A model generated the notes under the pieces. The model did no database searches. It saw only the letters and a list, made by a program, of their open reading frames with translations, and had not been told where the DNA came from. DNA of 24,509 bases from a virus: IMG/VR virus record IMGVR_UViG_3300029957_000041, positions 1-24,509 of that record. One strand, written 5' to 3'. The stretch's first letter is position 1. The number at the start of each line of letters is the position of its first letter. Made by a program: the position numbers and the translations under genes. Shown here in pieces: positions 1,829 to 24,509 of this stretch.

Positions 1829-2100
1829 AATTTTCCTTTGCGCGCGATGGTGCGTTTGAGCAGCCGCACTTCGCGGGTTAGTTCGGTGATCTGGTTGGAC
1901 TGCTGGAGATTCTCATTGGCGTTGTAGGCTCGACAAACTGGCGTGTTGGTGATGAATGCCGTATTGGGAACTTGAGTGATCCACCGGCGATTCTCCGGGT
2001 CTTTCTTGTCGTAGATGTCGGTGAAATTCTGGCTGCGCTCAGCGTAAAAACCCTCGTTGATTTGAAGCGCAAACCCGGTCTCAAAATAAACGGTCATCAT
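1825..2100 (-). CDS. Hypothetical 91-aa early protein
   Basis: I placed the start at the ATG of 2100, which overlaps the MuB-like stop as ATGA and is preceded by a purine-rich AAGGGGAGTGGGA stretch; the frame is open four codons further upstream. The N-terminal part is mixed beta-like (MMTVYFETGFALQI) and the C-terminus is a short coiled coil with a basic tail (QITELTREVRLLKRTIARKG). Not recognised. It lies directly after the transposition ATPase, so a role accessory to transposition is possible but unproven. Confidence 0.65.
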   Translation of the reverse strand: MMTVYFETGFALQINEGFYAERSQNFTDIYDKKDPENRRWITQVPNTAFITNTPVCRAYNANENLQQSNQITELTREVRLLKRTIARKGKL

Positions 2101-3227
2101 TGGACGTCCCACTCCCCTTCCTGCTCGGCTTGTTTGGCGATGAGCAAGTGCGCCTTCACGAAGTGCGACCAGTTCAGTTTCTGACCACGCCGGCTGGCCA
2201 GCTTGCGGGCGTAGCGCAGCCGCTCGGTGACGGCCTTGAGCGCCTCTTCCTTGCAGACCTGTTTCAGGATGGCGTAGGGCTGCTCGGTAACATCGTCCAC
2301 GGTCACAGTGACATTGGCCTCTGGAAATTCCAGGCCGTGATGTTCCAGAATCAGGCTCACGTCGCCCTTCGTAGGCATGGTGGGCAGATAGACCTTATGC
2401 ACACCCCGCCGCCAGAGCTGCTGCAGCTCGCGCTGGCGCGCCGCCTTTACGTCATCGAGCAGCGTGAAACACAGGACCATGCCGCACTTGGCGCGGTCGT
2501 GGATCTCGCGGATGACTTCCATGCAGTTGTGGAAGCTGCCCTTGCGGTAGGTATGGGCGAGCAGATGAACCTCGTCCAGTATGAGCAGCATGTTCGGCGT
2601 GAGGGCATTGATGATGCGTTCGATGAGGTCGCTGGTGTTGCTCTTGGAGCTGACGCCCACGGCCTCGGCGATGCAGCGGACCATTCCGCCCAAGCCGCTG
2701 GCGGCGCGCATTCGGCAATAAACGGTGTGGCCGTGGTTGTTGCCGGGCGTGTAGTGCCGTTCCAGCGCCCACGTCTTGCCCACGTGCGACGGCCCGACGA
2801 GGAACACGATGGACTGGCTCTCGCGGCCCAGATCGCACGCGGTGACGATCTTCTTGGCGGTGGGCGTGAGCACGAACTCTGTCTCGCCGCCTTCAAACCG
2901 CTCCTTTTCCAGCGCGAGAAACTCGCGGATGGATTTGATGAGGTCGCCGCTGGGTTGGAGCTGTTCCTTTGTTTCCGGATGCGTGTATTTGCCGGTGTAG
3001 ATCTTGTAAAGCGTGTTGTCGCTGCTCTTGACGCGGCGGGCGAACTCGGGCTTGGCGACGGGATGCTTGGTATCCGTGCACCAGTAGAACGCTTTGATGA
3101 GGACTTCCTTGGCCTCGGCGTTGTAGTTGGCGATGTTGGCGCGGATGTCGTCGGCGCTGAAATTCCAAGAGGCGCGGACGGTGTTGCCTACATTTGGGGC
3201 GGCTTCGGTTTCGATGTTTGTGCTCAT
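2097..3227 (-). CDS. MuB-like AAA+ ATPase, transposition target selector
   Basis: 376 aa (Mu B is somewhat shorter). A leading region at about 20-110 resembles the N-terminal DNA-binding part of MuB-type ATPases. It is followed by an AAA+ core with Walker A GPSHVGKT at 145-152 and Walker B MLLILDEVH at 213-221 (D218, E219). In Mu and Tn7-like systems such ATPases bind DNA with ATP, pick the target and activate the transposase. Its place beside the DDE transposase and its cytoplasmic sequence fit that job. The start is preceded by AGGACCA (3230-3236) and the stop overlaps the next ATG. The long plus-strand open frame at 2100-3257 is a GC-rich shadow. Confidence 0.9.
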   Translation of the reverse strand: MSTNIETEAAPNVGNTVRASWNFSADDIRANIANYNAEAKEVLIKAFYWCTDTKHPVAKPEFARRVKSSDNTLYKIYTGKYTHPETKEQLQPSGDLIKSIREFLALEKERFEGGETEFVLTPTAKKIVTACDLGRESQSIVFLVGPSHVGKTWALERHYTPGNNHGHTVYCRMRAASGLGGMVRCIAEAVGVSSKSNTSDLIERIINALTPNMLLILDEVHLLAHTYRKGSFHNCMEVIREIHDRAKCGMVLCFTLLDDVKAARQRELQQLWRRGVHKVYLPTMPTKGDVSLILEHHGLEFPEANVTVTVDDVTEQPYAILKQVCKEEALKAVTERLRYARKLASRRGQKLNWSHFVKAHLLIAKQAEQEGEWDVQ

Positions 3228-3740: not shown

Positions 3741-3765
3741 TGGTCCTGTTTTTTGTTGGTTGGTT
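3741..3765 (-). promoter_or_regulatory. AGGACCA module, copy 3, with shared upstream leader
   Basis: AGGACCA (3747-3741) precedes the ATG of the 158-aa gene. The 17 bases AACCAACCAACAAAAAA (3765-3749, minus strand) recur identically at 214-198 before the pentapeptide gene. Confidence 0.75.
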
Positions 3766-5908
3766 AATCGAGCAATTCTTCGGTGTTCAATTCCGGCGTC
3801 ATCTGACGCCCGGAAAATTCATTCTCCCGGCCCAGCAACTCTTCCGAGCTTTCCGAAAGTGCCTGGCATCGGTTGTCTTGCGGTTCAGCCTGGGCGGGAG
3901 AATCAAGGAGTTCATCGGCGCTGCCAACGAGGCGGCGCGCATTGGCCTGCGTGCGCTTGGTGGCGCGGGTATTCTCGCGGGCGCGGGTGATCTGCTCGCC
4001 CACGGGCCCGCTGGCGGGGACGCTCGCCCCACCGGTGCGACGCTCAAGGAACGGCGCAAGGGTGCGGCTCTCCGTGCGCGAGACGGTGGCCAGCAGTTTT
4101 TTCCGCTGCGCCTCGGTGGCGAGCTGGTCCGTGGTCGCCCCAAACCGGGACAACTCAGGCACACGCGGGGCGCAGCAGATCAGTTTGTCCGGCTTGCCGG
4201 ACTTGAGGGTGTAGATCACGGCATCGGTATCCGGATCGTAATCGTTCCAGAAGATGACGACGCGGCGGCCACGATGAATTTCAAGAGCAGGATGGCTGTA
4301 GGTGTAGCCCTTCTGGAACTTGCCGCTGCCGATGGTCACGCGCACGCCGTTGCGAGTGACCTGCAGCACGTTGTAGGCAGCGCGATACATCCACTTGGAT
4401 TCATCAGGGAACTTCACGAATGTGGGGTTGATCTCCGCCCAGGCTTCCGCCGGCGTGCGGCCATGCAGAATCTTTCCGTCATTGCGTTCGTGGTTAAGCG
4501 CGTTCATCACGCCGCGCAGATGCTCGGCGTATTCGCTCACGTGCAGAAAATATTGGCGCGGATGCGCGTGGCCGGCGCGCACCTGGGCAAGCTCGTGCTT
4601 CACGTTCTCGGGGCAGTCTTTCATCTCCATGCGCCCGCAGAATCCGCGCACGGCATCGGCGGCGTGCTGCAGGTTGTTGAACGCGGTCTCGATGATCTTG
4701 CCGCGGGGCGTGCGGGTGTGGATGACTTTCACGCCGAGCGATTTCAAACCACCGAACCGCGTGGAATCGTCAATGCCGGTCTTGTGGCCGATGACTACAT
4801 TGCTCTGCCACGTGCCGCCTTCCAGCACAGCGATCTGGTCCACCTTGCCGGCGGTGTCGGTGTGCAGGCCGTATTCGTCCAGGTAATCGCCGAGCAGTCC
4901 CCAGACGTCGTCCTTGGTGTATTGGCCCTTGGGGCGCATCACAGCGCGGATGTTAAGCCAGGCCATGGTGCCGACGTTCATCACAGCGAGGATCTGCGGA
5001 CGGATGAGCAGGAAGCCTTCCTCGTTGGGCCACTCGCACCACACGTAGCAGTTAGCCGTCATGTCGTCGGCGGTGATGGCACGGATGTCGGTGTCGGCGT
5101 AGCTGCACTCGGTATAAGGTCCGTCCAACTTGGCGGCCTTGGGGCCGATCTGCATGAGCTTGGTGCCGAGCGGTGAGACGCGCAGGGCATCGCGCACGCT
5201 AGGCGGCACGTAGCTCTTGCTGGCGTGCGCGCCGTGCAACCACATGCGGGCGCTGCCGTGAATGGTGGGGTCGCTCACCATGTTGCGAAAGGCGCGGGCG
5301 ATATTCTGGCGGCCTTTGATGCCGTGCTCCACGGCGTTGGCGCGGCCGCGCAGGATGCTTTCCTCGGCCAGATCGCGGGCATAGCTCTTGCGGCCCACTA
5401 CGCCGCGCTTCTGTTCCACGAGGCCATCAATGCCGCGCTCAGCGTAGGCAGCGCACCAGTCGTGCAAGGCGCGTGGGCTGATGGGCATGAGCGGCTGCTC
5501 CTTCTTGAAATGTTCTACAACCAGGGCGACGGCGCGCATCTTGCCAAAGATGGAATTGCTGGCGACGAGCTTCACGGCGCGTTCACGCAGCAGGACTTTT
5601 TCGCGAGCCGCATCGGAGTGGGCCAAGTCCGAAAACCGGACTTCTGGCGCGGGGCATGATGTATCCATCGCGGGTGTGGCCACGACGGCCAGAGCTATCT
5701 GCGCCGGGGGAATGAACTCCAAACGGTTGCCCTGAGCGCGGCACGGCCACGCCTCGCGCTCGGCGGTGCGTTGCACCGTTTTTTTATTGGCGCCGAGCGC
5801 GCGGGCGATGTCGCGCAGACTGAAGTATTCAGTCGGGGCGACGGTGGGCTGAGCGTCGATGGACGCGAGCACCTGGTCCATTACTTGATCCGGGGCGGGA
5901 TGGTTCAT
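3764..5908 (-). CDS. MuA-like DDE transposase
   Basis: 714 aa (MuA 663). Residues 26-75 are an HTH (YFSLRDIARALGANKKTVQR) like the Mu-type DNA-binding domain; 100-240 match the end-binding helical region; about 265-430 form the RNase H-like core. I align D282 (TADDMTANCYVW) with MuA D269 and E407 (GKIIETAFNNLQ) with E392. The second acidic position falls at LEGGTWQSN, giving E363 where MuA has Asp. Residues about 490-580 fit the C-terminal beta-barrel. The tail is basic and then carries three acidic ELL motifs (664-669, 688-693, 709-714). It would cut and join the phage ends in integration and replication. Its ATG overlaps the upstream TGA (ATGA), and no Shine-Dalgarno is obvious. The plus-strand frames inside it are shadows. 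Confidence 0.93.
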   Translation of the reverse strand: MNHPAPDQVMDQVLASIDAQPTVAPTEYFSLRDIARALGANKKTVQRTAEREAWPCRAQGNRLEFIPPAQIALAVVATPAMDTSCPAPEVRFSDLAHSDAAREKVLLRERAVKLVASNSIFGKMRAVALVVEHFKKEQPLMPISPRALHDWCAAYAERGIDGLVEQKRGVVGRKSYARDLAEESILRGRANAVEHGIKGRQNIARAFRNMVSDPTIHGSARMWLHGAHASKSYVPPSVRDALRVSPLGTKLMQIGPKAAKLDGPYTECSYADTDIRAITADDMTANCYVWCEWPNEEGFLLIRPQILAVMNVGTMAWLNIRAVMRPKGQYTKDDVWGLLGDYLDEYGLHTDTAGKVDQIAVLEGGTWQSNVVIGHKTGIDDSTRFGGLKSLGVKVIHTRTPRGKIIETAFNNLQHAADAVRGFCGRMEMKDCPENVKHELAQVRAGHAHPRQYFLHVSEYAEHLRGVMNALNHERNDGKILHGRTPAEAWAEINPTFVKFPDESKWMYRAAYNVLQVTRNGVRVTIGSGKFQKGYTYSHPALEIHRGRRVVIFWNDYDPDTDAVIYTLKSGKPDKLICCAPRVPELSRFGATTDQLATEAQRKKLLATVSRTESRTLAPFLERRTGGASVPASGPVGEQITRARENTRATKRTQANARRLVGSADELLDSPAQAEPQDNRCQALSESSEELLGRENEFSGRQMTPELNTEELLD

Positions 5909-8576: not shown

Positions 8577-8790
8577 GATTATTAACCCTTGATTCGAACC
8601 CCTTGATGAACCCTTTATTTTTCATACGTGCCGAGCCTGCCAGCGGGGGTCAGACAATGGCTGTCCTTGTGGATAAGTACAACAACTTTCCAAATGCTGT
8701 AAATTGTCTAAATATGACCTGTTTTTTGAAACTTTGCTAAGGAATCTAAAAATCTTGTGCCACGGTGGCACAGAAAAACCGAGGCCGGAA
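8577..8790. other. AT-rich non-coding region with 17-bp palindrome
   Basis: It separates the repressor from the lipoprotein gene and is clearly AT-richer than its surroundings. TGTGCCAC-G-GTGGCACA at 8756-8772 is a perfect 8+1+8 palindrome. TTGAAA (8726-8731) and TAAAAA (8747-8752) resemble promoter boxes with a short 15-bp spacer. The palindrome sits where the start site would be, so it could be an operator or an early-transcript hairpin. No terminator was seen after the repressor gene. Confidence 0.5.
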
Positions 8791-9459
8791 ATGAACCTGA
8801 AAACCACCTGCATTTTAGTTACCACCGGCTTGCTGCTGGCCGGCTGCAAGCCCGCACCTGATCCACGCATCGCCAAACTGGAAGCGAGAGTCAAAAACTT
8901 GGAGGAAAAGCAGGCGCTGATGGTTCAGGGAGATGATGGCATTCTAAAAATTTTCCAATCACTTCAAGTCCTAGAGACCAATCAGATGCTTCGGCTAAAT
9001 GATCTAGATCGGCAAATGGATCTTTGTCTTGAGACTTTAACAACCCACTCGAAGACTCTGAAAACATTACTTGAAAACAAAACCCCTCAACCAGTAAAAC
9101 CCATTTCCGTGGCGACTAGACCTGTCGGCTCGGCCATGCTGATTTACGGAAAAGTGCTGCAACGTTTGGATGATGGTTTGCTCGTGGATACACTCAGTGC
9201 GCATGATGCGCTGGTGAACTCCATCGAACGCGGCCAGAACACAGACAACGATCCGACGAGCCTGGCATACATCAAGGCAGAGCGGGAAAGAAAAGTTCAA
9301 CCGTTTTTCGGCCTTTGTTTGCTTATTAACCACCCGCTTCAATCCAACTTTGTCGATGATAGTGCCGTCAGTGCCGTCGCCATTCCGGTTGGTGAATACC
9401 AATACGTCTCCACCACTGGCGCACAAAAAACCATCCGGAAATTTTCGGTGATAAAGTAA
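8791..9459 (+). CDS. Coiled-coil lipoprotein (possible lysogenic-conversion gene)
   Basis: 222 aa from the ATG at 8791, which has GAGG about seven bases upstream; the frame is open back to 8704. Residues 1-19 are a lipoprotein signal with lipobox LAGC (C19). Residues 27-55 are a coiled coil (IAKLEARVKNLEEKQALM). Residues about 125-222 look beta-rich (GKVLQRLDDGLLVD, VPVGEYQYVSTTG-like end). It would be lipid-anchored in the cell envelope. It has its own upstream regulatory region and a strong terminator after it, and it differs in base composition from neighbours, so it resembles a moron expressed in the lysogen, for example for superinfection exclusion. Function unknown. Confidence 0.7.
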   Translation: MNLKTTCILVTTGLLLAGCKPAPDPRIAKLEARVKNLEEKQALMVQGDDGILKIFQSLQVLETNQMLRLNDLDRQMDLCLETLTTHSKTLKTLLENKTPQPVKPISVATRPVGSAMLIYGKVLQRLDDGLLVDTLSAHDALVNSIERGQNTDNDPTSLAYIKAERERKVQPFFGLCLLINHPLQSNFVDDSAVSAVAIPVGEYQYVSTTGAQKTIRKFSVIK

Positions 9460-9542: not shown

Positions 9543-9685
9543 CTCTGATTCCGCTTCTCTAATTCCGTCTCTCATTTTGTTTTCGGCGTAGACCGCATTT
9601 GTCTAATCCGGCTTGCAATACTGGATTCGTGTTTAGGACCAATCCACATAAGTCAACCGGGGACTTCACCCCATATCCCACCATC

Positions 9686-10057
9686 ATGAAAACATCCATC
9701 CGCAGACTGTTCACCATCGGACTTTTGACCATCGCCGCCGTTTTAATGAGCGGTTGCATCAATCCCACCATCCAGCCGGTCGGTACGGAATTGACGCTCG
9801 ATCTCAAGAAAGGCACCGCCCGCTGGTACAACAACAAGGACACCGGTATCGGCAGCCTCCATGCCGAATATGATCCGGCCACCGGCAAGAGCGTACTGGA
9901 CGTCACCAACGTGACCACCGCGCTCACGCCCGAGGTAGCCACCAAAGCCGCCGACAGCAATCTCGCCAATCTGAAAGAGCTGCATGCCATGAATAACGAT
10001 CAGCTCGACCGGGTCAAGGACATCGCCGGCAAGGTCGTGGATGCCATCCCCAAATAA
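9686..10057 (+). CDS. Small lipoprotein, possible outer spanin
   Basis: 123 aa from the ATG at 9686; the frame is open back to 9599 but the signal peptide fixes the start. MKTSIRR is followed by a hydrophobic core and LMSGC (C24), a lipoprotein signal. The mature part starts strand-like (GTELTLDLKKGTARWYNNKD) and ends in helices (ANLKELHAMNNDQLDRVKDI). As the first gene of the late block, before a lipase and a membrane coiled-coil protein, it may be the outer-membrane part of a spanin-like lysis complex. No Shine-Dalgarno is visible. The upstream 9543-9685 stretch holds no recognisable gene and probably contains the late promoter, which I could not identify. Confidence 0.6.
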   Translation: MKTSIRRLFTIGLLTIAAVLMSGCINPTIQPVGTELTLDLKKGTARWYNNKDTGIGSLHAEYDPATGKSVLDVTNVTTALTPEVATKAADSNLANLKELHAMNNDQLDRVKDIAGKVVDAIPK

Positions 10058-10093: not shown

Positions 10094-10852
10094 ATGACAT
10101 TCGACCTGCAACGCGCGATTCGGCTGGCCGCTCTGGCGGACGAGGCCTATACGCGCAAGCCGTCCGTGGTGGATGCCGCCACGGACACGCAGGTGTGCCT
10201 CACGGACGACATGGCAGCGCGGGAGACGGTCATCGCCTTCCGTGGCACCAGCGATCTGCGCGACTGGGTGACGGATGCGAGCATCAGCTTGGGCCGTTAC
10301 TTTCCCGGCGGGCAACTGCACCACGGCGTGCATGATGCCGTGGAGGCCGTGCTGCCGGAGCTTTCCAATCAATGCCGGCTGCGCGGGCCGGGCCAGACGT
10401 TCTGGTTCACCGGGCACAGCCTGGGCGGCGCGGAAGCGGCGCTGGCGGCGTATTGCCTCGCCCGACAGGTGGACGGATTCCAGATCGGCGGCGTGATCAC
10501 CTACGCCGCGCCGCGCTGGTGCGATGCGGAGTTCAGCCGCACTTACAACGCCGCGCTGGGTGAAACCACTTGGCGCGCGACCGCCGCGGGCGATGTGATC
10601 CCGCACGTGCCGCTGCCCGGATTCTTCCTGCCATACCGCCATGTGGGCCATGAGGCGCACTTGGATTGGAACGCTGACTTATTGCTGGACCGCAGCCTAT
10701 GGGCACTGCTGCGCAACGATCTGACCGATCTGCTGAACGCCCGTGCGCTCATCAAAGGCAACTGCCCGCTGCTGCCATTCGACCTGGCTAACAATCATGC
10801 AATGGCCCGTTACACCTGGCTGCTGAATGCGTCCGCCGTAAAACAATCATGA
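10094..10852 (+). CDS. Class 3 lipase-like alpha/beta hydrolase
   Basis: 252 aa. The nucleophile elbow is GHSLGG (107-112, S109). The oxyanion strand VIAFRGTSDLRDW (46-58), acid D167 (AAGDVIPHVP) and a late His (H235 in NHAMARY) complete a Lipase_3 triad. There is no signal peptide, so it would act in the cytoplasm unless released or carried on the virion. It would hydrolyse acyl ester bonds in lipids. It occupies the slot where Mu has its lysozyme; a role in membrane or outer-membrane disruption at lysis is an inference. Its TGA overlaps the next ATG. Confidence 0.85.
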   Translation: MTFDLQRAIRLAALADEAYTRKPSVVDAATDTQVCLTDDMAARETVIAFRGTSDLRDWVTDASISLGRYFPGGQLHHGVHDAVEAVLPELSNQCRLRGPGQTFWFTGHSLGGAEAALAAYCLARQVDGFQIGGVITYAAPRWCDAEFSRTYNAALGETTWRATAAGDVIPHVPLPGFFLPYRHVGHEAHLDWNADLLLDRSLWALLRNDLTDLLNARALIKGNCPLLPFDLANNHAMARYTWLLNASAVKQS

Positions 10853-11511: not shown

Positions 11512-12066
11512 ATGTCACAAGCCCGCACAGGAAAAATTGCCCGCGCCTCATTCGAGGTCCGCACGCACGTGAACGTGATGTTGCGCGACGGCAACACGGC
11601 CAAGGCCGTGATGAGCTTTCTGGAAGGCGCCGGCATCACCGGCGTGAATGAGCAGAACGTCACCAACTGGCGCGACGGCGGATTTCAGGACTGGCTGTCC
11701 GAGCAGAGCCGGCTGGACGACATGCGCGCCAAGCGTGAGTTCGCGTTACAGATCGTGAAGGAAAACGACGGCAGCAAGCTGCACGAGGCCACGCTGCACC
11801 TCGCTGCCAGCCAGCTCTACGATGCGCTGGAAGATTTCGATGTCTCACGGCTCAAGGAGCTGCTGGCCGACAAGCCGGAGAATTTCGCCCAGATCGTCAA
11901 CAGCCTGGCCAAGCTCAGCAAGGGCGCGCTGGACGTTCAGAAATACAAAGACCTGGTGCGCGAACAGAAAGCCAAGATCGAGGCCGCGCTCGGCGTGGCG
12001 AAGTCCAAAGGCGGACTCACCAAGGAAACGCTCGCCACCATCGAGCAGGCCGCCGCAATGTTATGA
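11512..12066 (+). CDS. Terminase small subunit (Mu gp27/DUF3486-like)
   Basis: 184 aa. The N-terminal half is an HTH-type DNA-recognition region (DGNTAKAVMSFLEGAGITGV, NEQNVTNWRDGGFQDWL) and the C-terminal half is long helix (DVQKYKDLVREQKAKIEAAL). Size, order and the NVTNW(R) segment fit DUF3486. It would recognise the phage end and pass DNA to the large subunit. Its TGA overlaps the ATG of the large subunit. Confidence 0.8.
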   Translation: MSQARTGKIARASFEVRTHVNVMLRDGNTAKAVMSFLEGAGITGVNEQNVTNWRDGGFQDWLSEQSRLDDMRAKREFALQIVKENDGSKLHEATLHLAASQLYDALEDFDVSRLKELLADKPENFAQIVNSLAKLSKGALDVQKYKDLVREQKAKIEAALGVAKSKGGLTKETLATIEQAAAML

Positions 12067-13493
12067 GTCGCCAAACAAAAGAAATTCGGTCCGTCACGAA
12101 GCGCCCTGGCTTTGTTACGGCGGACTTTGGCGGCTGCTGCAAGCAGTTTCCCGTGCCGACCGCCGATGGCCGCGAGCCGGTGTTGCTCGCGTATCAGGCG
12201 GACTGGGTGCTCGATGATTCTCGGTTGAAGATCGCCGAGAAGTCGCGGCAGATCGGCTGGACGTGGAGCGAGGGCTACAAGATCGTGCGCGACAAATCGC
12301 AGAGTGATGCGCGGCTTGACCATTGGATTTCTTCGCGGGACGACATCCAGGCGCGGTTGTTTCTGGAAGATTGCAAGGGCTTTGCAAACCTACTGAACAT
12401 CGCCGCCAAAGACCTCGGGCTGATGGTCATTGACGAGAAATGCAGCGCCTACGTTTTGAGTTTTGCAAATGGATTGCGGGCCCACTCGATGAGCAGCAAC
12501 CCGGATGCGCAGGCGGGCAAGCGCGGTGGACGCACGCTGGACGAGTTCGCGCTACATCCCGATCCGCGCAAGCTCTACGCCATCGCATATCCTGGCATCA
12601 CCTGGGGCGGCGGCATGAGCATCTTTTCCACGCATCGCGGCTCGGCCAATTTCTTTAACGACCTCATCAATGAGATCAAGCACAAGGGCAATCCGAAGGG
12701 ATTCTCGCTGCATCGCGTGACGTTGCAGACGGCGCTGGACGAGGGTTTCCTCTACAAGCTGCAAAAGAAACTGCCGGCGGATGACGAACGCCAGCAGATG
12801 GACGAGGCCGCGTATTTCGATTTCATCCGCAAAGGCTGTCCAGACGAGGAATCGTTCAACCAGGAATATCTCTGCATCCCCAGCGACGACAACGCCGCGT
12901 TCCTGTCTTACGAACTCATTCAAGGTTGCGAGTACAAGGCCGACGAGAACTGGCAGACCGATCTCGCCGATGCCAAAGGCAATCTCTACATCGGTGTGGA
13001 CGTGGGCCGGCAGCACGATCTCACCGCCATCTGGGTGGTGGAACAACTCGGCGACGTGCGCTACACGCGCCGGCTCATCGAACTCAAGACGGAAACTTTC
13101 GACGCGCAGGAGCACGCGCTCTACACGCTGCTGCAACTTCCCCAGGTGCGCCGGTGCTGCATCGACCAGACCGGCATCGGCCGGCAGTTCGCCGAGCGTG
13201 CGCAGACGCGCTTCGGAAAATACAAGGTCGAGGGCGTGAACTTCACCGGCGCGAGCAAGGAAGAGATGGCCTATCCCGTGCGGGCGGCTTTCGAAGACAA
13301 GAGCGTTCGGATCCCGAACAGCGACAAGATCCGCAGCGACCTGCGCGCCATCAAGAAGGAAACCACGACTAGCGGCAACATCCGCTTCACCGCTGACCGG
13401 GGTGTGAATGGCCACAGCGACCGGTTCTGGGCGCTGGCGCTGGCGCTGCACGCGGCTAAAACAAAAATGGAAATGGGGGCAATGGTAGGATGA
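12063..13493 (+). CDS. Terminase large subunit (Mu gp28-like)
   Basis: 476 aa. ATPase: the Walker A-like KSRQIGWTW (60-68) is the form typical of Mu-type terminases, and the Walker B region ends in RTLDEFA (157-163, D160/E161). Nuclease (RNase H fold): GVDVGRQHD (D313), RRCCIDQTGIG (D368) and HSDRFWALALAL (D453). It cuts and pumps DNA into the procapsid at the portal. Coupled by ATGA to both neighbours. Confidence 0.92.
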   Translation: MSRQTKEIRSVTKRPGFVTADFGGCCKQFPVPTADGREPVLLAYQADWVLDDSRLKIAEKSRQIGWTWSEGYKIVRDKSQSDARLDHWISSRDDIQARLFLEDCKGFANLLNIAAKDLGLMVIDEKCSAYVLSFANGLRAHSMSSNPDAQAGKRGGRTLDEFALHPDPRKLYAIAYPGITWGGGMSIFSTHRGSANFFNDLINEIKHKGNPKGFSLHRVTLQTALDEGFLYKLQKKLPADDERQQMDEAAYFDFIRKGCPDEESFNQEYLCIPSDDNAAFLSYELIQGCEYKADENWQTDLADAKGNLYIGVDVGRQHDLTAIWVVEQLGDVRYTRRLIELKTETFDAQEHALYTLLQLPQVRRCCIDQTGIGRQFAERAQTRFGKYKVEGVNFTGASKEEMAYPVRAAFEDKSVRIPNSDKIRSDLRAIKKETTTSGNIRFTADRGVNGHSDRFWALALALHAAKTKMEMGAMVG

Positions 13494-13735
13494 AACCGCA
13501 AAACTTTTTTCTCGCGAACACCACGGTGGGCAAGCCGGAAACCGGCAAGGATGAAGTGGCGGCTCTGCCCATCTTCACCGATGGCGACCGCTGCCTATCC
13601 CGCTGGAAGATGACGTGGCGCGAACGGTTCAGCGCGTTCTTTTTTGGCACCGCTTGGGTATGGGTCAAATCAGGAAAAACCATGCCGCCGATGTTGATCC
13701 AGGCGAGCCGCAACCCGCAGGAGAAAATTAGATGA
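13490..13735 (+). CDS. Small protein between terminase and portal genes
   Basis: 81 aa. The sequence RWKMTWRERFSAFFFGTAWV followed by VKSGKTMPPMLI resembles short phage proteins I recall next to portal genes, which share the ERxSxxFFGxxW...SGxTxPP pattern. Role unknown. Both ends overlap the neighbouring genes by four bases (ATGA). The aromatic segment (about 46-58) may be membrane-peripheral. Confidence 0.7.
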   Translation: MKPQNFFLANTTVGKPETGKDEVAALPIFTDGDRCLSRWKMTWRERFSAFFFGTAWVWVKSGKTMPPMLIQASRNPQEKIR

Positions 13736-16008
13736 GATTTTTTGGCGACACAAAATCGGTCTCTCCCGCCGTCTCGGCGTTCTTCAACGGCACGGACGTT
13801 ATGGAGGACGGCAGCAACGGCGCGAAGATCACCACGCCATACGCGCAATCGAGCTGGGTCTACATCGCCATCAACCGGTTGGCCAAGAAAGTTTCGTCTA
13901 TTCCATTTCGCATCTCGCGCGTGGGCAGCGGCAATGCCAAGCGCATCCGAGCGCTGCGCAGTTCCTCCGATCCGCGCCACTGCCGATTCATCACCAAGGC
14001 GCTTGGCGAGACGATCATCGAGAGCGGCGATGTGGTGGACCTGTTCAACCGCCCGCATCCCACGATGAACCGGCAGCTATTCTGGGAGATGGTGGTGACG
14101 TGGAATTGTCTGCGCGGCGAGTTCTTCATCATGCCGCTGGATGGCGCGGACGGTACGGTGGATCTCACCGAGCGCAACCCACGAGTGGAGCGTTTGCTCA
14201 CGGTGCCCACGGAACTTTTCTGGCACATCGTGCAAGGTTACGACCTCAAGGCATGGCGCTACACGGGCAGCCCGCTGCTCACGCCACTACCTTCAGAAAT
14301 CCTTTCGCCTGGGGAAATCATCCACAGCCGCACGCCTAACCCGTATCTCTACTGGCGCGGCATGAGTCCGCTGTTTCTGGCCATGGGCCCAGCGGGCGCG
14401 GATTACGCAGCCAGCCAATACGCCAAGGGCTACTGGATGAATAACGCCGACACTGGCGTGATCGTAACCACCGAACAGCAATGCGCGCCCGATCAGCGCG
14501 AGGCTATTCTCACCGCGCTACGCGAGCGCAAAAGAAAGGCCGGCACGGCAGACCGTCCGCTGTTCCTCTGGGGCGGCGCAAAGGTGGAAAAACCGCAACT
14601 CTCCGGCATGGAGCAGCAGTTCATCGAGAACCGCAAGATGAACCGGCAGGAGATTGCCGCCATCTACGAAGTGCCAGATAGCATCATGGGCTTCAGTGAG
14701 GCCAAGGCCAGCGCACTCTCTGGCGGCGGCGACGCCATCCAGCAGGAACAGATCGGTTTTCTGGAAAATACCATCTGCCCGCTCTGCTGCCACATCGAGG
14801 CCGCGATCGAGCCGGTCATAAAAACATTTGGCGAAGATCTCATCGGCTGGTTCGACGTGGACAGCCAGCCGGCCATGCAGGCTGCACGCCGCGCCCGCGT
14901 GGACACTGCCGCCAAAGCCTTCGCCATCGGCGCGAGCTTCAACGATGTGAACACGGTGTACGACCTCGGCTTCGAGAAAAAGCCCTGGGGCGATCTGAGC
15001 TACCTGCCGTTTAACCTGCAACAGGTCGGGGAGACACCCGAGCCGTTGCCGAGTGAAACCGAACCGGACGGAGACGAGGCGAAGAGCAATCCGTTTTCCG
15101 CGATGCGATCGCTGCTCTCCGGCATCAAGACCACGCCGCAAGTCCGCAAGCCAAGCGTGGACGTGGTCAATCTCTGGAAAGCGCACATCACGGCGCGGCG
15201 TGCGGCCGTCAAGATGTTCGAAGGCAAGATTGGCAAAGTGGTGATGAGATTCCGCACCAGCACGCTGGCCAAGCTAAACGAGATTCACCTGGAGAAATCC
15301 GCCGGGCGCATGGGCGAGATCAAGAGCCTGATCGATCTGATTTTTCACGCGACTAGTTTCGGCAAGGCGTTGAACACGGAATTGGAAACGCCGCTGCGTA
15401 GCACCTTACAGAGCGCCGGCGACCAGATGCGCGCCGAACTCGGCCAGGATGATCCGTGGAAGTATCCGCCGCAGGCCGTACAGGAATTTCTCGCCAGCCG
15501 CACTCAGAAGATCGCGGGCGTGGGCGACACGCTCCGCAACCAGCTCAACACCGCGCTCACGGACGGCATGGAAGCCGGCGAGACGACGGACGAACTGGCG
15601 GCCCGGCTCAAGGGCGTCTTCAACGAGTTCACCGATGGCGGCGCGCGGCGCGTGGCGCAGACGGAAGTAAACACCGCCTACAACACCGCCCGGCACGAGG
15701 CGATGACGGACGCGGGCATCGAATACAAATCCTGGTTGAGCAGCCACGGCCCGCACGTGCGGCCCGCGCATGCCGAAGCCGAAGAGGTCTATCTTAACGA
15801 ACCCATCCCGCTGGATGAGCCGTTCGACGTGGGCGGCGACCAGATGATGTTCCCCGGCGACGACAGCCTTGGCGCGGACGTGAGCAATATCATCAACTGC
15901 CAGTGTATCCAGCTCGCGGCGCAGAAACAGAGCGAAGACGACAAGAGTGCCACCTATAAGATTTTCGGAGCGGGGACGATGACCTTTGACCGCCAAGGTA
16001 CCAAGTGA
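13732..16008 (+). CDS. Portal protein fused to MuF-like head morphogenesis domain
   Basis: 758 aa, much longer than a plain portal. Residues about 30-430 are an HK97-type portal (SWVYIAINRLAKKVSSIPFR, HSRTPNPYLYWRGMSPLF, and QEIAAIYEVPDSIMG, a hallmark of the family). A linker with acidic and basic stretches follows. Residues about 600-728 are a Phage_Mu_F-type domain (RRVAQTEVNTAYNTARHEAM, HVRPAH, and NIINCQC near 719-725). The portal forms the ring at the DNA entry vertex; MuF proteins are minor head proteins, often ejected or part of the vertex. In Mu these are two genes (gp29 and gp30), and the Mu portal is of another family. One frame with no internal stop. Confidence 0.88.
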   Translation: MRFFGDTKSVSPAVSAFFNGTDVMEDGSNGAKITTPYAQSSWVYIAINRLAKKVSSIPFRISRVGSGNAKRIRALRSSSDPRHCRFITKALGETIIESGDVVDLFNRPHPTMNRQLFWEMVVTWNCLRGEFFIMPLDGADGTVDLTERNPRVERLLTVPTELFWHIVQGYDLKAWRYTGSPLLTPLPSEILSPGEIIHSRTPNPYLYWRGMSPLFLAMGPAGADYAASQYAKGYWMNNADTGVIVTTEQQCAPDQREAILTALRERKRKAGTADRPLFLWGGAKVEKPQLSGMEQQFIENRKMNRQEIAAIYEVPDSIMGFSEAKASALSGGGDAIQQEQIGFLENTICPLCCHIEAAIEPVIKTFGEDLIGWFDVDSQPAMQAARRARVDTAAKAFAIGASFNDVNTVYDLGFEKKPWGDLSYLPFNLQQVGETPEPLPSETEPDGDEAKSNPFSAMRSLLSGIKTTPQVRKPSVDVVNLWKAHITARRAAVKMFEGKIGKVVMRFRTSTLAKLNEIHLEKSAGRMGEIKSLIDLIFHATSFGKALNTELETPLRSTLQSAGDQMRAELGQDDPWKYPPQAVQEFLASRTQKIAGVGDTLRNQLNTALTDGMEAGETTDELAARLKGVFNEFTDGGARRVAQTEVNTAYNTARHEAMTDAGIEYKSWLSSHGPHVRPAHAEAEEVYLNEPIPLDEPFDVGGDQMMFPGDDSLGADVSNIINCQCIQLAAQKQSEDDKSATYKIFGAGTMTFDRQGTK

Positions 16009-16152: not shown

Positions 16153-16863
16153 ATGAAACACCTATTGCCATCAGAATTAGAGAAAGCCCTTGGCGCACGG
16201 GTTGTGACACTCAACTCCGGTGCGCGGGGCATCCGCGGCGGAATGACTTGCACAGTCAAGGACCTCGGCGGCGATGAGCCGGTGATGGACTTCATCGGCA
16301 GCGACGGTGGCGTGGACCGCTACAACGAGGTGATCGACCAGAGCGGCTGGGACTTGGAAGCCTTCCGCGCCAACCCGGTGATCCCGGACTGCCATGATTA
16401 TTCCAGCATCGCCAAAATCCTTGCCCGTGCCGACAGCGTGCAGGTGACGGACGGACGGCTCGTGGACCGCGTGCGTTTCTGCGTGGAAAATCCGATGGGC
16501 CTGCTCGCCTACAAGATGGCCAAGGGAGGTTTCATCAAGAGCCAGTCGGTCGGTTTCATCCCCCTCGAATGGGTGAACGGCTCGGGCGAAAACCAGCCTG
16601 AGCGCACCTACAAGAAATGTGAGCTGCTGGAAATCTCGCTCGTCGTCGTACCTGCCAATCCCGGCGCGACCATCGGGCTGGCGCTCAAGAGCGGCGCGAT
16701 CCAGCGCGGCGACGTGATGGATGTCGTCAAGTTCCTCAAACAATTTTGCAGCGAAGAAAAGACAAATCCCGATGACCTGGCTGGCGCGTCCGTCGCGGGA
16801 ATTTATGACGCGCATTTGTTGCGAATCGCCCGGGGCCTCAAAGAGGTCATGAACCAGGCGTGA
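16153..16863 (+). CDS. Prohead maturation protease (HK97 family, S78-like)
   Basis: 236 aa. Candidate catalytic residues: H81 in DCHDYSS, S132 in IKSQSVGFIP, and E160 in LLEISLVVVPANPGA. This H/S pattern and the ExSxVxxPAN end are typical of HK97-type prohead proteases. It cleaves the N-terminal scaffold (delta) domain of the major capsid protein encoded next and then itself. The C-terminal 50 residues are a helical tail. The leader reads CATAAAATC before ATG and lacks a Shine-Dalgarno. Confidence 0.9.
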   Translation: MKHLLPSELEKALGARVVTLNSGARGIRGGMTCTVKDLGGDEPVMDFIGSDGGVDRYNEVIDQSGWDLEAFRANPVIPDCHDYSSIAKILARADSVQVTDGRLVDRVRFCVENPMGLLAYKMAKGGFIKSQSVGFIPLEWVNGSGENQPERTYKKCELLEISLVVVPANPGATIGLALKSGAIQRGDVMDVVKFLKQFCSEEKTNPDDLAGASVAGIYDAHLLRIARGLKEVMNQA

Positions 16864-16900: not shown

Positions 16901-18388
16901 ATGAAACAAACCTTCCGCAAATACAAAAACCTGATCAGCCTCACGGCGGTCGGTCTGCTGGCCGTGGCACTCACGGTCCTCACCGGCAACGTCGCCAGCG
17001 GCATTGCCATCATCGGTCTCTGGCAGCTCTCGCAGTTCGCCATGAGCCGCAAACCCGGCTACTGCTTTACCGCCGTGCTCACGCCCGAACAGGTCAAGGA
17101 GTTCGATCAGATCCTGACGAGCTTCAAGGGCTACGACGGGCTGTTCAAGGAACTGCTCGACGTGTCCAAGTCCGAAGGTGGATTCGCGGCGATCAAGAAA
17201 TTGCCCGAGCTGCTCAAGACCGAACAGAAACGCAACGACGAGCTGCACGGCGAATTGAAGAAGCTGCGCAAGCAGGCGGCCGCCTTTGCTGGTAACACCG
17301 GCGTGCGCTGGATCGGTAACGTCCCGTTTGTCACCGACGACTGTGCTCGCGCCCTGACCAGTTGCGTCATCCTTGACATCGCGCGGATCGGAGAAAAGGC
17401 GATGAACGCCCTGACGCCGCACCAGCGGAATCATGAAGGCTTGATCCAGCGCGCATGCGAACATTTGGGCATCGAACAAAAAGCGGCGCTGACTGGCACG
17501 GAAATCCCGCTGCCCACCGTCTATGTGCCGCAGATCGTGGAGCTAGTCTGGAAGTATGGCCAGGCCCGGCAATACGCTACCGTGTTTCCGCTCGGTGCCG
17601 GCACCGTCAAGTTCCCCCGATTGAAAGCCGGTGAAGACGACTTCGGTTTCCTCGGCGTCGGCACGGCCGGCATGAGCCAGAGCGTCACGGAAAAGAAGGT
17701 CACTGCCGAACTCGTCACGTTCACCGCGAACAAGGCGGGCGGTTTGATCCGCATCCCCACCGAACTGGAAGAAGACACGTTCGTCCAGATCGGCCAGTTC
17801 CTCGCGCGCTACATCGGCCGCCAACTCGCCAAGCTGGAAGACAAGACCGTGTTCCTCGGCGACGGCACGAGCACTTATGCGAACATCACCGGCGTCGGCC
17901 CGTATTGTGTGGCCAACTCCACCTATCTGGTGAGCATGGCCTCGGGCAAAACCAAACCGTCTGACGCGACTCTGGCGAACTTCCGTAAATTGCGCGCCCT
18001 TGTGAGCGACGCCGTCTTGAACGGCACCAATGCCGCGTACTATATGAAGCCCACGATGGAACAGCTCCTCGTCAGCTTCAACACCATCGGATCGCCGTTG
18101 ATCTACCGCCCACAGCAGGGGGTGCAGCCGGCCACGCTGGACGGCTTCCCGATCCACTGGATTGGTGTCGGCCAGGGCTATGCGGAAACCGCCGCTCCCA
18201 GCACGTTCCTCGCCTTCTTCGGCGACCTCAGCTATGTGACGCTCGCTGAACGTGGCGCGCCCCGCGTGGAGATCAGCCGGGAAGTGTTCTTCGCCACGGA
18301 CGAACTGGCGATGCGCGCCCTGGAACGCATCGACGTGGAAATGATGGCCGTGGACGCCATGAGCGCGCTGCAGACTGCGGCCAACTAA
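16901..18388 (+). CDS. Major capsid protein, HK97 fold, with hydrophobic N-terminus
   Basis: 495 aa. Residues about 145-490 fit Phage_capsid: GTEIPLPTVYVPQIVELVWK, KFPRLKAGEDDFGFLG, RQLAKLEDKTVFLGDGTST (E-loop/spine region) and a C-terminal P/A-domain end (SREVFFATDELAMRALERID). Residues 60-125 are helical, as in a delta scaffold domain. Oddly, residues 1-10 are basic and 11-47 form two hydrophobic helices (LISLTAVGLLAVALTVLTG and ASGIAIIGLWQL), looking like a membrane hairpin. The next Met (49) has no better initiation signal, and neither start has a Shine-Dalgarno; the 37-base leader is AC-rich (CAATCAACAACCACCAAATA). The N-terminal part would be removed by the protease encoded upstream. 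Confidence 0.9.
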   Translation: MKQTFRKYKNLISLTAVGLLAVALTVLTGNVASGIAIIGLWQLSQFAMSRKPGYCFTAVLTPEQVKEFDQILTSFKGYDGLFKELLDVSKSEGGFAAIKKLPELLKTEQKRNDELHGELKKLRKQAAAFAGNTGVRWIGNVPFVTDDCARALTSCVILDIARIGEKAMNALTPHQRNHEGLIQRACEHLGIEQKAALTGTEIPLPTVYVPQIVELVWKYGQARQYATVFPLGAGTVKFPRLKAGEDDFGFLGVGTAGMSQSVTEKKVTAELVTFTANKAGGLIRIPTELEEDTFVQIGQFLARYIGRQLAKLEDKTVFLGDGTSTYANITGVGPYCVANSTYLVSMASGKTKPSDATLANFRKLRALVSDAVLNGTNAAYYMKPTMEQLLVSFNTIGSPLIYRPQQGVQPATLDGFPIHWIGVGQGYAETAAPSTFLAFFGDLSYVTLAERGAPRVEISREVFFATDELAMRALERIDVEMMAVDAMSALQTAAN

Positions 18389-18479: not shown

Positions 18480-19082
18480 ATGAAAAATACTCTCAAAAAA
18501 GTTATCATCGTCGGCGCTGTTTGCGCCGTCATCGCGGCGGCGGCTATTGCAGCCCTGCCAACGTTCCTCAGTAAAGCAGCCACCGGCTCCACGGTCGCGC
18601 GGGCAATTTTCCCGCAAGACCCGACCTCGCAGATCCGCGTGGTCAGCGCCATCAGTTCGAGCGACCTATCGAGCAGCACGTTGAAGTTCTACTCGGGTGG
18701 CACGGCCACCTATACCGTGGCCACCAATGCCACCAGCAGCACAAACCTCTACGTCGCCAGCACGAACGGATTCGCGCTGAACAACGTGGTTTATGTGCAG
18801 GGCACCGGCTCCAACGTCGTGGCCACGGTCACCAGCCTGGTCAGTTCCACGAACGTGGGATTGTCCGCGGCCATCGGCGCGAATGTGGGCTTGAACTGCG
18901 AGGTGGAAATCCTCGGCAGCGCATTGCCGACGCTCGCGGTTGGCGCGACAACCAATAAGACGTTTGCCAGCGACGGCCTTGTCGTGGGCAACTACGGCCG
19001 CGCGCTCGTCGTGGAACAAACCGGCACCGGTTACAGCTCGCTGGACAGCGTGACTGTTCATTACGACAGCGCCGCTTATTGA
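18480..19082 (+). CDS. Signal/anchor-bearing head-associated protein
   Basis: 200 aa. Residues 1-7 are basic (MKNTLKK) and 8-30 hydrophobic (VIIVGAVCAVIAAAAIAALP), like a signal peptide or anchor. The rest is beta-rich and Ser/Thr/Gly/Val-rich (FYSGGTATYTVATNATSSTN; VALDSVTVHYD-like end), resembling a decoration or fibre-type protein. Gene position right after the major capsid protein favours a head decoration role. The start follows ATTAACATC with no Shine-Dalgarno. Family not recognised. Confidence 0.65.
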   Translation: MKNTLKKVIIVGAVCAVIAAAAIAALPTFLSKAATGSTVARAIFPQDPTSQIRVVSAISSSDLSSSTLKFYSGGTATYTVATNATSSTNLYVASTNGFALNNVVYVQGTGSNVVATVTSLVSSTNVGLSAAIGANVGLNCEVEILGSALPTLAVGATTNKTFASDGLVVGNYGRALVVEQTGTGYSSLDSVTVHYDSAAY

Positions 19083-19973: not shown

Positions 19974-20596
19974 GCCTGCAAATTGCCATCACCCTAACGC
20001 CTCAAGCGGAAGCTCTGGTGCAGAACGCCAAGAGCTTTCCCACTCGGCTGCCGGCGGCGATGGCGCGCACGCTCGACCAGCAGAACCTGCTCACGGTTTC
20101 GCACATCCAGAAGAAATATCTTTCGTTCTCAAAGAGCGGCCCAACCACCTCGGAAGGTTTACGCGCCATCAGCACGCCGGGCTTTCGAGGCACGCTGCGC
20201 GCCAGCAAGGCGAGCATCATTGGAGCAGCCAACGGCCAAGGAGTTTCGGCTTCGATTGGCAGCAACATCACGAAGAAAGGTTTCAGCTATCCGGCCCTAC
20301 ACGAGTTCGGCGGCATCGTGCATCATCCTGCGCGGACCGGATCGGTGCGGCTGCGCACCACGGCGGGCGGAAACATCCTGCGGCAGCCAGGCCGCGGCGG
20401 CGCGATGTTCGCCGGAAAACGCCATACGCGCTTCAAGGTGGTGCAATACCAGGGCAAGGCTTACAACGTGACCTATCCCGCCCGCGCTCCGATCCGGCGC
20501 GGCATTGCTGACCGCAAACCGGACTACACCGCGGCCCTAAGCGCCACGGTGGTGAAAACCTTTCTCGGAAAAGATTTCCCCGGAGGTGCCGCGTGA
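19970..20596 (+). CDS. HK97 gp10-like tail-completion/minor tail protein
   Basis: 208 aa. The region GFSYPALHEFGGIVHHPA (about 103-120) and the end YPARAPIRRGIADRKP (166-181) carry the H-E-F-G-x and R-P/A-x-R-P-x motifs common in gp10/minor-tail-Z type proteins at the head-tail joint. The N-terminal half is helical and basic. Overlaps the adaptor stop and the next GTG by four bases. Confidence 0.7.
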   Translation: MSLQIAITLTPQAEALVQNAKSFPTRLPAAMARTLDQQNLLTVSHIQKKYLSFSKSGPTTSEGLRAISTPGFRGTLRASKASIIGAANGQGVSASIGSNITKKGFSYPALHEFGGIVHHPARTGSVRLRTTAGGNILRQPGRGGAMFAGKRHTRFKVVQYQGKAYNVTYPARAPIRRGIADRKPDYTAALSATVVKTFLGKDFPGGAA

Positions 20597-21315
20597 GCTT
20601 CACCGATTTCATCCGATTGCAGAACGATGGTGCGCAGGCATTGCTGGGCGATACAGATCTGGCCAATGTGAACATCGTCACGCGCCACCGGCTCGTGCAG
20701 GACGGTTCACGGATGCCCGACCAGACGCTGGCGGCGGAAGTGCTCGCCTACACCACGCCGCGGGGAGGCCGGCAAGGTCTCGGCATCATCGTTGAAATCC
20801 CCGAGGTGAGCGTGGAACATCCCAACTTGCCCGGTCCGGAATGTTTCATCATCCAGACGTTCCTGATCCTGGAAGACCGGGTGCAGAATCTCGGGCCGAC
20901 CACCGGCACGCTCAAGCCCGCCGACCAAGCCGGCCAGCGTATCCTGGAACTCATGCACGGTTTGAACGTGGAGGGCGTGGGCCAATGGTTCGCCGAGCGC
21001 AACGCCATGCAGGCCGCGCCGGACTTCGAACCGCTCGACGCTTTCCGGGTGCGGCTCAAGCTGCGGTTGCAACGCGACCAGAGCGAACGCTGCGCCAATC
21101 CGGCTATCACCGAAGCCACCGGCACGATCACCTTGGACACCACAGACGACGGGGTCATCTGGTACACGACCGATGGCAGCTATCCCGCGCCGGGAAACAT
21201 CCAGGCAAAACAATTCAGCGCACCGTTCCAGGCCGACGTCGGCACGGTCATCCGCTGGGCCGCGTATTCGCCGTTGCGGCCGCAATCCCACGTCGGCAAA
21301 GCCACCGTCACCTAA
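20593..21315 (+). CDS. Tail terminator-like protein with chitobiase-like C-terminal domain
   Basis: 240 aa, GTG start overlapping the upstream TGA (GTGA). Residues 1-165 fit the position and alpha/beta pattern of a tail terminator or completion protein (QGLGIIVEIPEVSVEHPNLP; FRVRLKLRLQRDQ), though I cannot name its family with certainty. Residues 172-240 resemble the chitobiase/beta-hexosaminidase C-terminal domain, with the hallmark IWYTTDGSYPAPG at 189-201 and IRWAAYSP after it. Such domains are beta-sandwich modules that often sit on secreted carbohydrate enzymes. In a phage it could be a surface-exposed binding module on the tail. Confidence 0.65.
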   Translation: MSFTDFIRLQNDGAQALLGDTDLANVNIVTRHRLVQDGSRMPDQTLAAEVLAYTTPRGGRQGLGIIVEIPEVSVEHPNLPGPECFIIQTFLILEDRVQNLGPTTGTLKPADQAGQRILELMHGLNVEGVGQWFAERNAMQAAPDFEPLDAFRVRLKLRLQRDQSERCANPAITEATGTITLDTTDDGVIWYTTDGSYPAPGNIQAKQFSAPFQADVGTVIRWAAYSPLRPQSHVGKATVT

Positions 21316-22967: not shown

Positions 22968-22974
22968 AAAGACC

Positions 22975-24509
22975 ATGAGACCATTGACCATCAGACTTTT
23001 CATAGGCCTAGTTACCATGCTATCAGCGGCCGCCCAGGCACAGACCAATGTCATCTATGCCGACGTAGGCGATCTAGGCGCGGCATTGCAGAAGAATGTG
23101 AACGTGACCTGGACGCTGCTCGATCCAAACCCACGTACTTACAATGGCATCGTCATCAACCAAACGCCAAAAAGCCAAGCGAGCGATGCCAACGGGCGCG
23201 CATGGTTCACGAACATGATCTGGGGAAAATACCGCGTGGATGTAGCCGGCACGCCCGGTACTAGCTACAAGGTGACTGTGGGCACGAACACGATGGGCCT
23301 GGTGAACTTGGCGGCCGTGATCCAAAATCCAGGAACACTGCCTCCCAACTCCGCCACCAACTATTACACCCAGGCGCAGATTGATGCTTTGTTATCTGGA
23401 ATCGGCGGCGGCGGCACGACCTATACGAACAACACAGACATCGTTGGGAAGATTACCGGAAGCGGGATCGGTTCGAACTGGTTGTCGCTCGCCACCGCCG
23501 CCAGCCTCACCGGAGTGAGCAACACCGTTATCACGCTCTCAAACGCGCCAGTGAATCTCGTTCTCAACTACGGCAGCGTGGCGAACACGTTGTCGTACAT
23601 TGCGACGAACGATTGGAGCGGCTACAACGGTGCGCCGACGATGTCGATTTTGGGAATCGGTGACTCGTTATTCGCAAACAAGTTCGGCTCGGCGGCGGGC
23701 GACTTCCGCACGGTGCTGCAAAACAAATTCGGCGATACGGGCGAAGGGTTTGGCCACGCGGTCGCATTCGCGGCGAACAGCGGCTACACCACGAACGATT
23801 TCACCTATTCGTTGAACGGTCAGTATTTTGTGCTGACAAACGGGAGCGTGACATTCGACTTAGACGGCGCGGGCCTATCTGCTCATGCTGACCATGTTCA
23901 GGTATTCTATTATTCCCAGAGCGGCGGCGGCGGCTTCTCTGTTCAAGCGGCGCAGAATGGTGGCAGCTACGCATGGATTGGCGGGGTGAACACGAGCGGC
24001 GGCGCAACCAAGACGCTGCTGATGACGAACATTTCAGTCCCAGAGGGCTGGTACACGACCAAGCTAGTGTCGTCCAACAACGGCGTGGCGTGGATCGCGG
24101 GAGGCGGCTGGAACAACCGGGCGCACAAAGGTGCGGCCACCTACTGCATGGCAATGGGTGGAATTGATTGGGATAATTTCAGCAAGTGTAGCAGCACCGT
24201 CCTCAGTAACTACGGCGCGACCATCAAACCGCAACTCATCACCGTGGAAGAAACGTCGTCGTCGAATTTGTGGATGAACGGTGCGGCCTACGTCATCACC
24301 AACATCGTCAACGGCAGCATCGCGGCGGGCCAGACGCCAGACGTGTGGGTTGTGACCCCAAACCCGATGGCCGCAAACGATGCGGCAAATGTTTCTCAAA
24401 TTGGAGCGATGAAATTGCTGGCTAGGCAATACGGGTGGGGCGTGTTCGACCAGCATCAATGGTATATCAACAATGGCGGCACGAATTGGATGTTGGCCAA
24501 CGACTCCTA
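22975..24509 (+). CDS. Secreted-looking SGNH/GDSL hydrolase tail fibre, cut by right edge
   Basis: I translated this frame by hand: an ATG at 22975 and 511 codons open to the window end with no stop. Residues 1-22 are a classical signal peptide (MRPLTIRLFIGLVTML, then AAAQAQ with AQA cleavage). About 25-115 are a beta domain like carboxypeptidase-regulatory modules (NVNVTWTLLD; DANGRAWFTNMIWGKYRVDV). A Gly/Thr/Asn-rich linker follows. SGNH block I ILGIGDSLF is at about residue 225, and VVTPNPMAAND near 465 matches later blocks; the catalytic Asp-His end may lie beyond the window or at FDQH. Such domains deacetylate surface sugars, as on receptor-degrading tail fibres. Leader ACTTAAAAAGACC has no Shine-Dalgarno. 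Confidence 0.75.
   Translation, partial: MRPLTIRLFIGLVTMLSAAAQAQTNVIYADVGDLGAALQKNVNVTWTLLDPNPRTYNGIVINQTPKSQASDANGRAWFTNMIWGKYRVDVAGTPGTSYKVTVGTNTMGLVNLAAVIQNPGTLPPNSATNYYTQAQIDALLSGIGGGGTTYTNNTDIVGKITGSGIGSNWLSLATAASLTGVSNTVITLSNAPVNLVLNYGSVANTLSYIATNDWSGYNGAPTMSILGIGDSLFANKFGSAAGDFRTVLQNKFGDTGEGFGHAVAFAANSGYTTNDFTYSLNGQYFVLTNGSVTFDLDGAGLSAHADHVQVFYYSQSGGGGFSVQAAQNGGSYAWIGGVNTSGGATKTLLMTNISVPEGWYTTKLVSSNNGVAWIAGGGWNNRAHKGAATYCMAMGGIDWDNFSKCSSTVLSNYGATIKPQLITVEETSSSNLWMNGAAYVITNIVNGSIAAGQTPDVWVVTPNPMAANDAANVSQIGAMKLLARQYGWGVFDQHQWYINNGGTNWMLANDS

Follow-up and report, generated by a model that had tools for sequence, protein, structure and literature searches.

A Verrucomicrobiota phage family with a conserved membrane-like hairpin at the N-terminus of its HK97-type major capsid protein

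Introduction

The major capsid protein encoded in the window, that is, in the whole stretch of 24,509 nucleotides that was analysed, begins with two hydrophobic helices placed ahead of a scaffold region and an HK97 fold. Two questions arise: whether this hairpin is a genuine part of the protein, and what a membrane-like segment could do in head assembly. In the internal-membrane phages PRD1 and PM2, the coat is assembled at the inner membrane of the host or around it. Coat assembly at the host inner membrane has also been described for pVIII of the filamentous phages (PMC3185693). The folds of these proteins are unrelated to that of the window capsid, and pVIII is a single membrane helix retained in the virion. 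The prohead of SPP1, a phage with the HK97 fold, is initiated on the inner side of the cell membrane, with contact through the portal, by a molecular mechanism that its authors describe as unknown (PMC13212656). Unlike the window phage, SPP1 has a portal-dependent contact, a separate scaffold protein and a capsid protein without a described membrane segment. In T4, the prohead starts on the inner membrane through the portal gp20, with gp40 and YidC, and is then matured by proteolysis (PMC9958956); its anchor is the portal and a chaperone, whereas the coat protein is proposed here. The membrane link is known elsewhere through the portal, and what distinguishes this locus is a conserved membrane-like hairpin on the coat protein's own scaffold domain. 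The earlier note on this DNA knew of no standard HK97-type phage with such an arrangement, and no capsid protein with such a hairpin is described in the literature searched, most subscription journals being outside its coverage.

The capsid gene, its product and the prohead protease

The head genes of the window and the parts of the capsid gene are as follows.

12063..13493, plus strand: terminase large subunit (PF17289, 8.3e-24)
13732..16008, plus strand: portal protein with a MuF-like C-terminal domain (PF04860, 1.6e-38; PF04233, 6.8e-9)
16153..16863, plus strand: S78-family prohead protease (PF04586, 8.9e-8; phrog_80, 1.2e-15)
16901-18388, plus strand: major capsid protein ORF, 495 aa, with ATG at 16901
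16901..17044, plus strand: hairpin, capsid codons 1-48 (AlphaFold2 helices, conservation, charge pattern, selection), consisting of a basic start (1-11), helix 1 (about 9-28), a short turn and helix 2 (about 31-48)
17045..17077, plus strand: basic linker, codons 49-59, joining the hairpin to the delta region (alignment)
17078..17482, plus strand: delta-like scaffold region, codons 60-194, mostly helical (helices within 62-129)
17483..18388, plus strand: HK97-fold capsid domain, codons 195-495 and stop (PF05065, PDB fold matches)

By family and fold, the product of the ORF 16901-18388 is an HK97-type major capsid protein. Its residues 204-487 match the Pfam family Phage_capsid (PF05065; 5.9e-28, 98.5 bits, cut-off 24.2). 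The AlphaFold2 model has a mean pLDDT of 69, with 68-79 in the hairpin block and low confidence in linker residues 52-60. Despite being of moderate confidence, this model is matched by Foldseek to many HK97-fold capsids at E <1e-6; the PDB matches include the GTA capsid 6tb9 (E 1.4e-12) and HK97 itself (2fte, 3e8k). In the model, the hairpin is followed by helices 62-74, 83-90 and 94-129 and then by the capsid domain; the N-terminal extension before residue 204 is helical at 62-129 and 146-188. The search for close capsid relatives among isolated phages returned none, the core identity being only 21-23%.

In HK97 the scaffold domain is 103 residues long; as trimeric coiled-coil towers, these domains extend towards the interior of the prohead and touch the portal (PMC10275583). 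The window locus resembles HK97 gp5/gp4 in its capsid fold, the N-terminally fused helical, coiled-coil-like scaffold, the protease gene directly upstream and the basic residue at the expected cut. It differs in the length of the scaffold (about 194 residues against 103) and in its beginning, where HK97 has the coiled coil first and the window protein has a hydrophobic hairpin ahead of the helices. The His and Ser motifs of the protease (CHDYSS and SQSVGF) are intact and conserved, and an S78 protease gene lies upstream of the capsid gene in all hairpin-bearing loci whose upstream sequence is covered. Position 194 of the capsid protein is K or R in 31 of 32 relatives and is followed by A, T or S; the putative protease cut is likely to fall after K194 (K194/A195).

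Sequence and charge pattern of the hairpin

Residues 1-48 read MKQTFRKYKNL, then ISLTAVGLLAVALTVLTGNVASGIAIIGLWQLSQFA, then M, and SRK comes next. No charged residue is found from 12 to 47, with basic residues at both ends, and AlphaFold2 places the two helices at 9-28 and 31-48. The first of them (residues 11-29, 16931-16987) has a Kyte-Doolittle mean of 2.19 over 19 residues, against a classical threshold of 1.6 for such a window; the second remains under it (1.28 for residues 31-49, 1.34 in the best window). Over the 24 distinct hairpins, 1.6 or more is reached by helix 1 in all 24 and by helix 2 in 14, the window protein not being among the latter. By these predictions helix 1 is membrane-grade, and helix 2, in which a QxxQ (Q42, Q45) is conserved, is marginal. 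Since the same hydrophobic peak is reached somewhere in 517 of 5000 whole-protein shuffles (about 10%), the single sequence is not compelling, and it is conservation that decides.

Charges are distributed very unevenly along the 24 distinct hairpins. The ratio of K/R to D/E is 85:0 in the N flank, 1:2 in the core of 32-37 residues and 60:1 in the C flank (the next 12 residues), while the remainder of the capsid protein is charge-balanced. As read from sequence, this distribution is the one expected under the positive-inside rule for a membrane hairpin whose two ends lie in the cytosol, where the capsid domain would then stay as well. A search for known families or structures resembling the hairpin gave nothing convincing; its best Pfam matches are non-significant and nearly all are membrane proteins, including DUF2244 and caveolin.

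The architecture proposed in the earlier note agrees with these results. Its basic start and two hydrophobic helices (11-29 and 31-47) are recovered by Kyte-Doolittle values, AlphaFold2 and conservation, helix 2 being marginal; the helical delta-like region and HK97 fold behind them by AlphaFold2, Pfam and PDB matches; and the protease encoded upstream by PF04586, the catalytic motifs and its position directly before the capsid gene.

Conservation, start codon and selection

Scans of viral and bacterial genome contigs yielded 15 distinct hairpin-bearing capsid proteins, including that of the window. About nine more were obtained from a scan of viral contigs with the hairpin alone, and one further copy from a MAG. 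The hairpin-only scan gave 23 loci, and every translated one encodes an HK97-type capsid protein of the same family; no fusion of the hairpin to a non-capsid protein was found among them. A stand-alone hairpin gene was sought in the loci examined, those of the hairpin-less relatives included, and none was found.

The earlier note had left it to homologues to decide whether the hairpin is conserved together with the upstream start. It is so in at least 25 distinct capsid homologues, one of which (L055) has a very divergent core. The start codon is at the same relative position, where L039 and L040 have GTG, and the consensus reads MKxxLKxYRHLxALxAVxxxAxxLxxLGxPxxxxxxxVGxWQLSQFAMSKRxxxCYTT. The note had also counted it against the hairpin if all homologues were to begin near Met49; only some do (L004, L021, L022, L029). 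In the pair L013/L019, the hairpin codons have pN 0.11 and pS 0.47. The mean pN/pS over all pairs is 0.65 for the hairpin, 0.64 for the delta region and 0.42 for the capsid core, ratios which are rough because most pairs approach saturation at synonymous sites.

A wrongly assigned start codon, with the true start near Met48 or later, could be argued from the lack of a clear Shine-Dalgarno sequence ahead of 16901 and from those homologues that begin at the junction. This explanation is hardly credible given the sequence conservation, the purifying selection and the common start position in the hairpin-bearing homologues, among which no internal start codon is conserved, the internal Met included. 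It was rejected on the conserved start position and the selection on the hairpin codons, which, by these comparative signs, are translated and under purifying selection.

Hosts and hairpin-less relatives

The bacterial contigs bearing the hairpin belong to Verrucomicrobiota MAGs, of Pedosphaera and Limisphaerales, and the hairpin capsids are those of a Verrucomicrobiota phage family. When the family profile was run against 289 Verrucomicrobiota genomes, only the previously known genome was matched. From the same 289 genomes, 22 HK97-type capsid loci were drawn, one of which is the hairpin-bearing Pedosphaera copy; no comparable N-terminal segment was found in the other 21.

Eight relatives of the window protein have no hairpin and start at the junction motif LTxEQ or close to it, just past the basic linker. 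In the capsid-core tree they fall into about four lineages, and the presence/absence label requires five changes in total. L029 is devoid of the hairpin, which is present in its sister L052; in this case at least, a loss is likely. Absence in about four lineages means that the hairpin is not essential to this capsid fold. Hairpin-bearing and hairpin-less close relatives thereby offer a natural experiment on membrane binding and assembly site.

Several variants of the N-terminus were also observed. L006 has a different hydrophobic N-terminal segment at the hairpin's place. Two of the 21 other HK97-type capsids, from Verrucomicrobiota elements outside the window family, have an N-terminal segment after basic residues: a single, weaker hydrophobic one in L077 (1.33) and an amphipathic one in L075 (1.61); these are possibly a similar device. 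In the genome of L034, two different capsid genes of the hairpin family (L061 and L063) adjoin on one contig.

Possible role of the hairpin in head assembly

On the sequence evidence, the free capsid precursor probably associates with the membrane, and this suggests that head assembly may begin at the membrane of the host cell. In the most economical reading, the hairpin (residues 1-48) would be appended to the covalent scaffold (delta) domain at its N-terminal tip and would enter the cytoplasmic membrane from the cytosol, leaving both ends and the whole capsid protein on that side. It would bring capsid precursors to the membrane, where the procapsid would nucleate, probably with the portal. 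The S78 protease would then cut near K194/A195, discarding hairpin and delta together at maturation and leaving a mature capsid protein of about 301 aa. This whole path, from membrane tether through assembly there to removal by the protease, is more tentative, its chances being put a little short of even; the insertion, the place of assembly, the cut and the sequence of events are all inferred. Several observations stand against a tether: in the window protein, helix 2 falls under the membrane threshold and has the conserved polar Q42 and Q45, and the eight hairpin-less relatives are spread over about four lineages. The geometry is a further difficulty. Because HK97 scaffold tips face the prohead interior, away from outer membrane contact, "cut and release" in its simple form would require a special arrangement; with towers pointing inward, membrane would end up inside a fully anchored shell, and if the hairpins are on the tower tips, either membrane inside the growing shell or contact at nucleation only would be needed.

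The main rival to the membrane tether avoids this difficulty. The hairpins could pack together into a lipid-free hydrophobic core where the delta towers end inside the prohead, strengthening the scaffolding and later being digested by the protease, which agrees with the inward HK97 towers (PMC10275583); the marginal hydrophobicity of helix 2 and its conserved polar stripe would likewise suit helix packing. We consider it unlikely, since an uncharged core with K/R on both flanks is typical of membrane hairpins and unneeded by a soluble bundle, and a greasy hairpin exposed on the free subunit would tend to aggregate or reach the membrane. Hundreds of hairpins could instead anchor the shell to a bud of the cytoplasmic membrane, so that the enclosed lipid vesicle is the scaffold and the protease later frees the shell. 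This is the sole geometry that keeps every inward delta tip in a bilayer, and short hairpins that keep their two ends in the cytosol could promote curvature; if true, it would unite the assembly of tailed phages and of internal-membrane phages in one system. It is nevertheless very unlikely: no protein for processing a vesicle was identified, lipid would take up room needed for DNA, and we know of no HK97-fold virus with internal lipid.

A role mainly as a recruiting or timing signal would leave assembly free to occur elsewhere: the membrane would keep subunits apart until there are enough, or the hairpin would bring the protease in. Its support comes from two pairs of loci in which the protease gene and the hairpin codons diverge as one recombination block. 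In L045/L049 the portal and the capsid core are each 99% identical, but the protease is 66% and the hairpin 48%; in L012/L015 the corresponding values are 93% and 98% against 66% and 54%. Such blocks may reflect a joint function or the mere fact that the two are neighbours. Over 190 pairs, the correlation between protease and hairpin is just 0.25; co-inheritance as a general rule was rejected on this ground, and adjacency alone may account for the blocks, so a signalling role of this kind appears improbable.

Phage context and other genes of the window

Two transposition genes are found on the minus strand.

2097..3227, minus strand: MuB-type transposition ATPase (phrog_296, 3e-20)
3764..5908, minus strand: MuA-type transposase (phrog_310, 1.9e-22)

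With both homologues present, the phage is probably transposable. Of 16 related virus records, many of which are fragments, 3 contain close homologues of the MuA-type transposase. The transposable Pseudomonas siphophage JBD30 has an HK97-type capsid, a prohead protease and a separate scaffolding protein, gp33 (PMC11445458). It is similar to the window phage in its Mu-like transposition, capsid type and protease, and its capsid has no reported hairpin.

Directly 3' of the capsid gene, 18480-19082 has a conserved product, about 200 aa long, that carries a classical Sec-type signal peptide and an AxA-like cleavage site (predicted cleavage ...AAIA/ALPTF), followed by a beta domain with pLDDT >90 for most of it. 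In phages this slot is usually occupied by a head decoration gene, and a signal peptide there is odd. The product has no known family and no credible PDB match (TM <=0.33); homologues are present in L004, L009, L012, L013, L016, L021, L022, L024, L029, L030, L031, L050, L052 and L056. A tie between the hairpin and this protein was rejected, as hairpin-less relatives carry the signal peptide too.

A large ORF at 22972-24507, probably tail-related and open at the window end, has a signal-peptide-like start, MRPLTIRLFIGLVTMLSAAAQA/QTN, and then a GDSL-like motif; it is without a Pfam match. Between lipoprotein-like genes (8704-9459 and 9599-10057) and the terminase region, 10094-10852 encodes a class 3 lipase domain (PF01764, 1.4e-23), possibly related to lysis. 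In the tail region, the product of 20593-21315 carries a C-terminal Fn3_assoc / chitobiase C-terminal-like domain (PF13287, 2e-7).
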